Of a stretch of 37,162 nucleotides of DNA, positions 19,929-23,980 are shown in pieces. Below the pieces are notes generated by a model. That model did not search any database. It saw only the letters and a list, made by a program, of their open reading frames with translations, and had not been told where the DNA came from. The position numbers were made by a program, and so were the translations under genes. This stretch comes from Thermoplasmata archaeon. GTDB lineage: Archaea; Thermoplasmatota; Thermoplasmata; Thermoplasmatales; Thermoplasmataceae. Numbering within the stretch: position 1 is the stretch's first letter; each line of letters opens with the position of its first letter. The stretch covers positions 1-37,162 of the forward strand of contig JAKADT010000006.1 of assembly GCA_021820245.1 (NCBI GenBank), written 5' to 3'.

Positions 19929-20156
19929 ATGATTAAGAACAGGGATAACACAAAAACCAGGGTTCCATATGGCGGTTTTTACAGGGTTCTGGGTCTTTCA
20001 CTTATAGTTGTTGGTCTCGCATTCTACTTTGCATGGTCTATCATGTACGGCACCTGGCTTGATATAGGCCTGTATTCATTTGTAATCGTTCTTATTGTTT
20101 TCGGTATTCTCTCAATCGCACTGATTGATGCCAAAGAAAAGGAAGGAATAGCGTAA
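19929..20156 (+). CDS. Small two-TM membrane protein
   Basis: 75 aa, two hydrophobic segments; convergent to VirB4-like operon. Confidence 0.6.
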   Translation: MIKNRDNTKTRVPYGGFYRVLGLSLIVVGLAFYFAWSIMYGTWLDIGLYSFVIVLIVFGILSIALIDAKEKEGIA

Positions 20157-20195: not shown

Positions 20196-21824
20196 TCATT
20201 TTATGAGTTTTCGCTCATTTTCCGTGCTGATGATCCTTATTTTAAAGAGTTCTCTTCTCCTTATGAAGTAGCACTCAGAATAATCGACTGTCCTGCCTCC
20301 AAGAAGGGAATGGAACTCAGGCTCATCAAATCCTTCGAGATTCAACATTTTCGCATATTCCATCCTCATGGATCTTGTTCTGAAAACAAAAATTGAGGAT
20401 GTGTTTGCAAGGAGTGAACGATTTTCTCGGTACGAAAAGAGGTCGTCAATGCTCTGGGTTATGGATATTATGGAGAGCATGTAATGCCTGGAATGCCTGC
20501 TCAGGTTTGAAAGTATTCCTGAGGTATATCTGCTCGAGAGCGCCAGATGAGCTTCTTCAATGACCAGCATCTTCTTCAAACCCGGTGTCTGGACAGAATA
20601 GGCAAAAAGAGAAAGTATCAATTCAGGAAGAAGGCTCTCTGAAGTTTCCTCTTCAAGTATATTTACTTTAAATATGACAACTTTTACATGTTCACGCATC
20701 CAGGATTCTGAACTGATCACATTGAACTTCTGGGATCTCCCGTTATTCGGACCATATTTCATCCATATCCTGTGAATAATGTTGGAAGAACTTTCTTCTG
20801 GTTTTTCATGAACAAAGTATCCAATATCCCTCTCAATCTCACTTTTCATATGATCGTCTCCAAAAATTGTTCCAGAAAGAATGGTCGCAAGAGGAGATAC
20901 AAGATCCTGATTGAAGGGTCCCTGGCCAGATATATCCAGTATGTCTCCTTTTTTGAAATTTATCTCTACAGAATCAGGTCCGAACAGACTGGCACTGTAT
21001 TCATTCAGTGGATCTATTATGAAGATCTTTTCAGTATTCCCAGACGCTATGGATCTTCTGAGAAACACCTTTGAGAAGAATGATTTTCCAGACCCCGTTT
21101 CCCCAAGTATCACCGTATTGAAGGATTCATTCTGAAAACTGTCTATCAAGAACGGCTTCCCATTAACAGAATCTATACCAACTAAGACACCATTTGCAGG
21201 TTTCGCCGTGGAATAAACGGGCAGGATTGAGGAAACAGACCTTGCGTCAATAATATATGGGTCATCCATCCCTCTTTTAAGCGAGAATATTTTTTTCAAG
21301 TTTCGTCCATTTATGTTGGAAGACCTCCGATTGGAAAAACCAAGATAATTCATTGCGGATTCAAATCTGGAAGCGTTTTCCTTGAGCTCAAGGGGATCCC
21401 TTCCCATGATCCTGAATCTGAGGTCCATATAGAACAATTTGTTCCCCTGATTTCTCACGCGATCGGACAGGAATTCAATCTCACTGGATTCTCTCTTCAG
21501 CTCCTCATAAATCTGGCTCCTCTTTCCATAGTGAAATTTCATTTCTGCATGACGTGAGGACAGAAGCCCTGCAAGCATTCGTTCAGTCTTCGTTTTATCA
21601 ATAGGTTCCAGTTTCAGTCTGGTCAAAACAGGAAAGTCAAAACTTTCAAGCAATGATGCATAGGAATGCCCAAGGGAATAAACCATGTCTACTGTATGGT
21701 ATAAAGCCTGGAAGTTTCCAAGTTTGAAATAATTCACGCCAGTCCAGAAACGGTGCTCCGATAAAACTGATGCAGAATCATCTTCACCTTTCTTTAACAT
21801 CTCTTTCCCACACACTGACTCCAC
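20196..21824 (-). CDS. VirB4/TraC/CedB-like type IV secretion or DNA-import ATPase
   Basis: NTVILGETGSGKSFFSKVFLRR Walker A; FIIDPLNEY; KKMLVIEEAHLAL Walker B; SIISITQSIDDLF, typical of VirB4-type HerA/FtsK superfamily ATPases. Confidence 0.85.
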   Translation of the reverse strand: MESVCGKEMLKKGEDDSASVLSEHRFWTGVNYFKLGNFQALYHTVDMVYSLGHSYASLLESFDFPVLTRLKLEPIDKTKTERMLAGLLSSRHAEMKFHYGKRSQIYEELKRESSEIEFLSDRVRNQGNKLFYMDLRFRIMGRDPLELKENASRFESAMNYLGFSNRRSSNINGRNLKKIFSLKRGMDDPYIIDARSVSSILPVYSTAKPANGVLVGIDSVNGKPFLIDSFQNESFNTVILGETGSGKSFFSKVFLRRSIASGNTEKIFIIDPLNEYSASLFGPDSVEINFKKGDILDISGQGPFNQDLVSPLATILSGTIFGDDHMKSEIERDIGYFVHEKPEESSSNIIHRIWMKYGPNNGRSQKFNVISSESWMREHVKVVIFKVNILEEETSESLLPELILSLFAYSVQTPGLKKMLVIEEAHLALSSRYTSGILSNLSRHSRHYMLSIISITQSIDDLFSYRENRSLLANTSSIFVFRTRSMRMEYAKMLNLEGFDEPEFHSLLGGRTVDYSECYFIRRRELFKIRIISTENERKLIK

Positions 21825-22553
21825 CTACACCATGGAGGAGAATATCCTGATGAAAAGGGGCCTGGAATCAATCTTATGCACAGTAAACCCAAGCGAAGAA
21901 AGGTCTCTCCTCAGTTTCTCAATCCCATCTGCAGCCATTGTTGCGGCTTCATGAAATCCTCTGGCAGTGACAGGGTACTTAAGGACAACATAGTTTTTCA
22001 AATAATAAATTCCCGAGAATGAATATCTCAAGAGTCCGGCATAATCCTGCTCAAGTTCTCCTTTGTCTCTGGGTAGAAGGCCGGTTAGATCTGGTTCATG
22101 GGGAACAGAAATGAATTCAACGCTGCAGTCAAGCTTGTTCAGAATCAGGCGAAGACCGTTGTCACGTGCACCTGTGTCACTTCCCGGAACTGAGTGAAAC
22201 TGGGGGGATGAAATCTCCACAATTCCAGATATTGTGTTATCGTAAAGGGAAAATATGCACTCTTTCATTTCATGCAGTTCGTAGGTGTTGTTCAAAATAC
22301 CCTCAGTGCCTGAAAACTGCTTTCTTGCCCATGTTACCATCACTGTTCCAAGAACTCTATCGTTTACTCTTGCAATCAGAAATATCATTGATAGAAGAAG
22401 AAATGCAACAGATAAATAAAGGTTCAACCTGAAAATTAGTGCGGATATTATTACTGCCAGAATAATCATCATGAAGCGTCTGTATTCGAAGCCGAATATA
22501 TTTGCCTCGTATTTCAGAACATTTTTTGCCACACGATCACCGACTATCTTCAC
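21825..22553 (-). CDS. 2-TM membrane protein with soluble domain, VirB3/PrgI-like N-terminus and possible VirB4 N-domain-like C-terminus
   Basis: Two adjacent TM helices after a short basic N-terminus (FMMIILAVIISALIFRLNLYLSVAFLLLSMIFLIARVND); abuts the ATPase gene. Confidence 0.55.
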   Translation of the reverse strand: MKIVGDRVAKNVLKYEANIFGFEYRRFMMIILAVIISALIFRLNLYLSVAFLLLSMIFLIARVNDRVLGTVMVTWARKQFSGTEGILNNTYELHEMKECIFSLYDNTISGIVEISSPQFHSVPGSDTGARDNGLRLILNKLDCSVEFISVPHEPDLTGLLPRDKGELEQDYAGLLRYSFSGIYYLKNYVVLKYPVTARGFHEAATMAADGIEKLRRDLSSLGFTVHKIDSRPLFIRIFSSMV

Positions 22554-23592
22554 GACTATCAGCTCCTGAATTCAGTTCATTCTTCTCCATCATCTTAAAA
22601 TCAACACCGTGATCCCCATTTTCCGAGGAAGGTGAAAATTTTATATTCCTCATCAGGGGGAGTGCAGTTACGCCTGTTATGGAATTTATATCTGAGACTC
22701 CTGTCGCAATCGAAGCGAATCCCTGGGCAGTTGCAGCTCCGTATTCCATGGTTGATCCAAGTGATGCTCCGGATAGAAACGATGCGATTGTGCTGAACCT
22801 GAAAATTGGTGACTGACTGAACAGCAGAACCGGCATCATTGCTGCAAGGCTTATAAGTGCAAGTCTCAGAATAAAATCATCTGGGAACATTGTTGAAATG
22901 TAGATCGGTATCAGGACAAAGAATGGAAGTACCGAAAGTCCTATGAAAAACTTCCAGAAGCTAACTGCTGTCTTTTCCATACCGGGTATTGCTGAGAGAA
23001 TTGTAAATACAGGAAGAGTGACAATGAAGAAAAGGATCAATGCCTGCCTCAGTGCAAGCATACCCAGAAGTGCCATTATTACTGCAAAATAACCGGAATA
23101 AAATACAAGGTTCAGTAAAAGACTGCCGAGATTGTTTCCAGAAAGGTTACCCGAGACCTGAGCAGGTATGTTTATGTTGATCAGTATACCATACCAGTTT
23201 ATATTCCCGTTCCACAGAACAAGAAATATAGATCTGGAAATGTCAAGCACAGCAATGGATACCTGATATGATAAGATACCCACAGATACGGAAATGGCCA
23301 GTCTTATCACAAATTTGCCAGGTGAATTTGGCTCCAGAATAGAATTCCTGACCACGTACACCAGCGATGAACCCACAAGGACGAGTGAGATAATCGGGAT
23401 ATAGATGTTCCCCAGCAGACTGTTATATAGCCCCGATATGCCCGCTATTTTGAAAATACCGAAGGAATAGTGTGGGCTCAGTCCATAGTAAATTGCATAA
23501 TACCAGAACAGTGATATTAAGGGTGACAGTGCATCGTCGATCACTGTCAGTACAGCGGAGACAAGTCCTTCCGCTTCAGAAAGACCTATCAA
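22537..23592 (-). CDS. Polytopic membrane protein, VirB6/TrbL/CedA-like
   Basis: 351 aa, multiple TM segments, hydrophilic C-terminal tail; operonic with VirB4-like ATPase. Confidence 0.6.
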   Translation of the reverse strand: MIGLSEAEGLVSAVLTVIDDALSPLISLFWYYAIYYGLSPHYSFGIFKIAGISGLYNSLLGNIYIPIISLVLVGSSLVYVVRNSILEPNSPGKFVIRLAISVSVGILSYQVSIAVLDISRSIFLVLWNGNINWYGILININIPAQVSGNLSGNNLGSLLLNLVFYSGYFAVIMALLGMLALRQALILFFIVTLPVFTILSAIPGMEKTAVSFWKFFIGLSVLPFFVLIPIYISTMFPDDFILRLALISLAAMMPVLLFSQSPIFRFSTIASFLSGASLGSTMEYGAATAQGFASIATGVSDINSITGVTALPLMRNIKFSPSSENGDHGVDFKMMEKNELNSGADSREDSR

Positions 23593-23596
23593 TAAT

Positions 23597-23908
23597 TCAC
23601 GCGCCTGTTATGACATAGTTGAGGACAGCGTAAAGGGCCCCGCTCATTGCAAAGATATAGATGAGGGTTCCAATAAGGGCATTTTTGGTTCTGGTTCGAG
23701 CCTCAAACTTCCTGTTCTCATCAGTACTGAAATATCCAATTGCAATTGGAATCCATAAAAGAGCTATTAGTACAGCAGAAATTGAAGCCACAACAGCATA
23801 AACGCGGTTTATCATGGTTGAAAGCTGCTGGCTGCTACCACTAATGGCATTTATTACACTAAGTACATTTGTGGCATTAATGACCATAAGTACCATAAGT
23901 GCACACAA
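23597..23908 (-). CDS. Small membrane protein, VirB2/TrbC/CedA1 pilin-like
   Basis: Two long TM helices flanking a charged loop (FSTDENRKFEARTRTKNALIGTLIYIF); first gene of the operon; TATA-like TTATATATT suggests leaderless start at ATG 23887. Confidence 0.6.
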   Translation of the reverse strand: MCALMVLMVINATNVLSVINAISGSSQQLSTMINRVYAVVASISAVLIALLWIPIAIGYFSTDENRKFEARTRTKNALIGTLIYIFAMSGALYAVLNYVITGA

Positions 23909-23980
23909 TATATAATTCTTTTAAGGATTGTGAAGACGAAAAAATCCATCGATATAAATTACAGGGTTGGAAAAATTGTA

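Follow-up and report, generated by a model that had tools for sequence, protein, structure and literature searches.

A conserved four-gene VirB2-, VirB6- and VirB4-type cassette in Thermoplasmatales, probably a domesticated conjugation machine for DNA uptake

The window analysed here, a stretch of 37,162 nucleotides from a Thermoplasmata archaeon of the family Thermoplasmataceae (assembly GCA_021820245.1, contig JAKADT010000006.1), contains a run of four genes that were assigned to a VirB2-like pilin, a VirB6-like polytopic membrane protein and a VirB4 motor encoded in two parts (Table 1). The four minus-strand reading frames delimited in a preliminary description of this DNA were all recovered from the sequence. 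Its reading of them as one operon was borne out by the ORF map of the window, which shows an overlap of 17 nt between genes 2 and 3, no gap between genes 3 and 4, and 4 nt separating the pilin gene from the VirB6-like gene. The same gene order was repeated in ~35 related loci, and dN/dS values of 0.00-0.23 were obtained for the cassette genes in close pairs of relatives; by these two results the cassette is confirmed as real, far above chance.

Table 1. Genes and signals of the cassette, with positions in the window.
Feature	Position	Strand	Description
Gene 1, VirB2-like pilin	23597-23887; ORF reaches 23908	minus	~96 aa; 103 aa with upstream TTG
Gene 2, VirB6-like polytopic membrane protein	22537-23592	minus	351 aa, 6-7 TM
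Gene 3, two-helix anchor and VirB4 N-terminal domain	21825-22553	minus	242 aa
Gene 4, VirB4 ATPase, C-terminal part	20196-21824	minus	542 aa; Walker A GETGSGKS, Walker B LVIEEAH, TQS motif
TATA-like box TTATATA of the operon	about 23909-23917	minus	recognised in the sequence
Candidate fifth gene, two-TM protein	19929-20156	plus	75 aa, convergent with virB4

The TATA box that had been proposed to precede the small gene is present, but the TTG start suggested for that gene at 23908 lies too near to it. Since TTATATA directly adjoins this TTG, and since the pilins of relatives are shorter and several are preceded by a TTTATA box ~26 nt upstream of their ATG, the probable start of the pilin is ATG 23887 or 23896. 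In most relatives of the family, the pilin measures 83-99 aa, with 93-96 aa being commonest, and a comparable box precedes the pilin gene in several other genera.

Alignment A3 revealed the build of the pilins to be two hydrophobic helices with a short charged loop between them. Of 30 relatives, 29 matched the T4SS_pilin family PF18895 (best E 1.7e-8), while the pilin of the window reached E 5e-4, which is under the curated cut-off, and 4e-4 with the Mbov_0395 pilin-like model; the PDB sequence search with the pilin profile returned nothing meaningful. On this basis, the small protein is classed as a VirB2-like pilin. No clear signal peptide was found in the pilins of the window's family, whereas those of other families (L063, L069 and L070, compared with family f1 in alignment A3) carry apparent signal peptides, a contrast paralleling that between TedC and CedA1. 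An Aciduliprofundum-like genome has five tandem pilin-like genes (L070:11315-16174), at least three of them with large N-terminal domains, and f7 genomes encode proteins of ~1500 aa upstream of VirB6 (L277, L278). At L096:741-2051, the pilin seems to lie in frame behind an ORF (436 aa) resembling GTP cyclohydrolase, being either an artefact or a fusion.

For the polytopic protein encoded by gene 2, a Pfam search gave zero matches. Its family profile (A2) matched a VirB6 of Saccharibacteria at 1.6e-12, in a region overlapping the match of that protein to TrbL PF04610; the matched VirB6 adjoins a pilin, a PrgI protein and a VirB4. Comparison with a Firmicutes VirB6 profile was weak, and the PDB sequence search with the VirB6 profile yielded nothing meaningful. 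The AlphaFold model is all-helical (pLDDT 81) and had no significant match in a fold search against the PDB; two chains of R388 TrwI/VirB6 ranked 7th and 11th there with E > 1 and were not counted as evidence. Judged by its profile match, the gene 2 product is a VirB6-like polytopic protein.

Genes 3 and 4 are the two halves of one VirB4 motor. They are fused in about a dozen relatives, forming a single ORF of ~540-760 aa, and in the window they share the same frame with a TAG as the sole separator. Read-through of this TAG as a conserved feature was considered and rejected, since several relatives have genes 3 and 4 overlapping or in different frames. In the VirB4 tree, fused forms occur mixed with split ones, even inside one genus, which implies that the boundary between anchor and ATPase has changed repeatedly. 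The AlphaFold model of a fused orthologue (758 aa, pLDDT 81) matched R388 TrwK/VirB4 across its full length in Foldseek (best E 6e-23, TM-score up to 0.63); the top 14 matches were all chains of R388 T4SS entries, and the first HerA entry appeared at 4.6e-11.

Gene 3, encoding two TM helices and a soluble domain, had been listed in the preliminary description as a gene of its own. It is no independent component but the anchor and N-terminal domain of VirB4, as indicated by the fusions and by the profile of the soluble domain (A4), which matched a separate bacterial VirB4-NTD protein at 1.9e-17; the PDB sequence search with the gene 3 profile gave nothing meaningful. Similarity of the two helices to PrgI/VirB3 was weak, with PrgI matches subthreshold in 5 of 24 and an hhalign E of 6e-4 but a probability of 28%. 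The position of gene 3, its two TM helices and the fusion to VirB4 agree with a VirB3/PrgI-type anchor, and the helices probably represent such an anchor. For gene 4, the best PDB profile match was VirB4 4ag5 (8e-27), followed by a HerA-like NTPase (8j4u, 1.4e-19) and HerA (8wiv, 8.7e-12). The protein matches the DUF87/HerA Pfam domain, and VirB4-type NCBIfam models (CD1110/Mbov_0397/TraC type) were matched by 33 of 33 relatives.

Maximum-likelihood analysis of the ATPase domain united all sequences from Thermoplasmata in one clade with a bootstrap of 100, including one contig binned as WOR-3. This clade is nested in a VirB4 group together with bacterial monoderm and Thermoproteota T4SS-type VirB4s (bootstrap 88), while CedB groups with VirD4-like and Micrarchaeota ATPases (bootstrap 92) and HerA is the outgroup; a second ATPase tree was concordant at lower support. 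The motor thus belongs to the VirB4 clade, apart from CedB, and is not a HerA. Within the VirB4 tree, f1, f3, f4 and f7 each came out as a monophyletic family, as would be expected if inheritance were mainly vertical. The CedB model scored only 2e-4 on the window ATPase; the CedB profile aligned with the Thermoplasmatales VirB4 over 424 columns, part of the N-terminal domain included. An hhalign comparison of the VirB6-like profile with CedA, whose shallow profile comprised four sequences only, gave no signal. The cassette on the contig assigned to a WOR-3 bacterium (L103:3101-9464) is of the Aciduliprofundum type, reflecting misbinning or transfer.

Profile, fold and tree results together bear out the proposal of a minimal T4SS with VirB2-, VirB6- and VirB4-like parts. 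Tree, PDB profile scores and fold search also agree with the earlier view that its ATPase is not of the HerA or viral packaging type. Because the tree places the ATPase among bacterial VirB4s and not with CedB, the label 'Ced-like' suits the probable mode of working of the cassette but not the family of its ATPase.

A scan of genome contigs with a single VirB4 protein gave no matches; a profile scan recovered the homologues. The cassette ATPase was found in 36 of 37 sampled genomes of the window's family and in 54 of 61 relatives, and the VirB6 profile matched in 45 of 293 sampled genomes of the phylum, all belonging to the order of the window or to a single other family in its class. Some near-complete Aciduliprofundum-like (f5) genomes lack the cassette. 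In most of the family, it sits between thioesterase, RpiA and regulator genes on one side and DHNA aldolase, NTPase and TRM genes on the other. The housekeeping neighbours in the window are the catalytic and regulatory chains of ATCase, a TRM methyltransferase, an NTPase, DHNA aldolase, a thioesterase and RpiA. Ferroplasma-like genomes have the cassette at another site. No tRNA is present in the window, no integrase or relaxase was recognised among the identified neighbours, and VirB11, VirB8 and relaxase were not identified. A search for one relaxase family, PF03432, found none in the window's genome, which is ~80% complete. No relaxase, integrase, attachment site or sign of mobility that would assign the cassette to a mobile element was recognised among its identified neighbours, and its synteny is conserved. 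There is good support for a machine that is chromosomal, domesticated and inherited vertically.

The convergent 75-aa gene accompanies the cassette in most of the family: among 66 partly redundant loci, 44 have a homologue facing virB4 at a distance of no more than 250 nt from its 3' end. The dN/dS of this gene is 0.04. It is retained beside virB4 in L096, where the flanks are rearranged and thioesterase and RpiA sit on the opposite side; it is missing from the Ferroplasma-like clade and from other families. Its product is a possible fifth component of the cassette. The window has no VirD4 gene, as had been remarked before, yet a VirD4/TrwB-like ATPase is encoded elsewhere in the same genome (G000:C77:20359-22344; L154:6360-8348). 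This ATPase occurs in most genomes of the family and is absent from Ferroplasma-like ones; in G009, G018, G019 and G025, which have the cassette, only HerA-sized proteins match it. In the I-plasma family (L131:9112-11789, L063, L068, L073), the gene of a VirD4/CedB-like ATPase begins inside the last part of virB4, and a Gins23-like replication gene comes next, again with overlapping ends. The core common to the families comprises pilin, VirB6, anchor/NTD and VirB4. The cassette can do without the coupling-like ATPase, and this speaks mildly for a role on the recipient (import) side. Three type IV pilus-type ATPases in the window's genome make an Ups-like adhesion step possible.

Among known systems, Ced (CedA1, CedA, CedB and CedD; Sulfolobales and Desulfurococcales) resembles the cassette in being chromosomal and in combining a pilin, a 6-7 TM pore and a motor of the FtsK/HerA superfamily. 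The order pilin-VirB6-VirB4 equals that of the Ced clusters of two crenarchaeal genomes (L262, L263). Ced differs in that CedB lies outside the VirB4 clade, and gene 3 of the cassette is the anchor and N-terminal half of a VirB4; between the convergent two-TM gene and CedA2, no relation was demonstrated. Ted (TedC, TedA and TedB; Thermoproteales) is likewise a three-part minimal chromosomal T4SS with a VirB4-like ATPase (PMC9905601), a likeness drawn from its description, as no Ted sequences or loci were recognised among 300 sampled Thermoproteota genomes. Ted has HerA, Rad50 and ParA neighbours, none of which were seen at the cassette. Monoderm (MPF-FATA) conjugation systems, including those of Patescibacteria, share a VirB4 of the CD1110/Mbov_0397/TraC type, and a Saccharibacteria locus (L107) with separate PrgI and pilin matches the VirB6, VirB4-NTD and VirB4 profiles of the cassette. 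Compared with MPF-FATA, the cassette is a far smaller set at a fixed chromosomal site, with no relaxase found and no VirB1 or VirB8 recognised. Micrarchaeota and Marsarchaeota loci (L105, L108, L130 and similar ones) show tandem 6-8 TM proteins beside a VirB4/CedB-like ATPase, a conserved and apparently different system.

Reasoning from homology to R388 and Ced/Ted (PMC9905601, PMC11868833), we consider it probable that the cassette is a minimal domesticated T4SS of Thermoplasmatales, in which VirB4 drives a pilus and ssDNA passage via VirB6, most likely for uptake. The parts, namely VirB2-like pilin, VirB6-like protein and VirB4 motor, rest on sequence and fold, the transport steps on homology to R388 and Ced/Ted. 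A VirB4 hexamer would sit at the cytoplasmic face, with the gene 3 helices tethering it to the VirB6 pore, and would draw pilins out of the membrane into a thin pilus. It would further power the passage of ssDNA via VirB6 between adjacent cells that belong to one species or to closely related ones. The most likely role would be the one that Ced has, in which chromosomal DNA is taken up to serve recombination and repair. Both DNA transport and its import direction we infer by analogy.

The same machine could work on the donor side, as a pilus or DNA-export device served by the VirD4-like ATPase encoded elsewhere. The occurrence of this ATPase in most family genomes, and of a related one overlapping the virB4 stop in I-plasma-type genomes, speaks for a donor function, yet the cassette is kept in the four genomes with only HerA-sized matches, and we regard this explanation as unlikely. 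Instead of moving DNA, the domesticated T4SS might secrete proteins or act in contact between cells (effectors, adhesion, antagonism). This would accord with the lack of a PF03432 relaxase in the genome and of a coupling protein in the operon, as well as with the adhesive look of the pilin-like proteins of Aciduliprofundum-like and f7 genomes, which bear large additional domains at the N-terminus. However, the closest known chromosomal minimal systems, Ced and Ted, act on DNA, no effector-like genes adjoin the cassette, and the ATPase found in most family genomes is of the TrwB/VirD4-like, DNA-coupling type; such a role appears quite improbable.

That the cassette is a remnant or resident of an integrated conjugative element might be read from the grouping of its VirB4 with bacterial conjugative VirB4s and from related ATPases on archaeal conjugative plasmids. 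This reading is largely refuted by the conserved synteny, most of the family sharing the housekeeping neighbourhood; the mostly monophyletic family groups, the low dN/dS and the lack of a tRNA in the window and of any integrase or relaxase found also stand against it, leaving it very improbable. The preference for a domesticated chromosomal setting voiced in the preliminary description is upheld by the same evidence. Least credible, to the point of being practically dismissed, is a HerA/FtsK-type DNA repair or viral packaging ATPase beside unrelated membrane proteins. The DUF87/HerA Pfam match would suit it, but VirB4 scores are far above those of HerA, HerA forms the outgroup of the tree and no NurA lies beside the ATPase; moreover, the pilin and VirB6 partners are conserved, and phage records gave one weak match among 50,697.

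With a minimal domesticated T4SS as the preferred reading, we incline slightly towards a wider one, in which the cassette represents a third domesticated conjugation lineage, that of Thermoplasmatota, which would have arisen from monoderm-type VirB4 systems separately from Ced and would serve intercellular DNA exchange, with a motor repeatedly split and fused and with the gene at 19929-20156 as an extra family-specific two-helix component. Ced and Ted, both of Thermoproteota, are the only domesticated archaeal conjugation systems we found described in the open-licence literature. In Cuniculiplasma, a genome paper of 2016 reports a T4SS cluster in which VirB4 is joined by a multipass protein and two more membrane proteins, while an ATPase of the VirD4 family is encoded elsewhere; the passage concerned names no component beyond VirB4 and gives no conservation or phylogeny (PMC5155288). 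This cluster (CSP5_1185-1189/CPM_1190-93) very probably corresponds to the four genes described here. Later work on the Cuniculiplasma set was not found in the open-licence literature, and the order-wide conservation, the VirB3-VirB4 anatomy and the extra two-TM gene appear to be new.

Archaea have been stated to lack VirB3 (PMC11868833), a view to which the VirB3-like anchor probably encoded by gene 3 is relevant. Cultured carriers exist in Cuniculiplasma, going by its genome paper (PMC5155288), and in Thermoplasma, with Ferroplasma presumably carrying the cassette as well, so that the pilus is open to direct search. In Ferroplasma, where within-population recombination is high (PMC2704941), the cassette would offer a testable mechanism for it. 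The retention of the cassette at a fixed site by nearly all relatives suggests that the acidophilic Thermoplasmatales exchange DNA by a tamed conjugation machine. If true, such a machine throughout an order outside Thermoproteota would mean that taming conjugation is a recurrent archaeal strategy.
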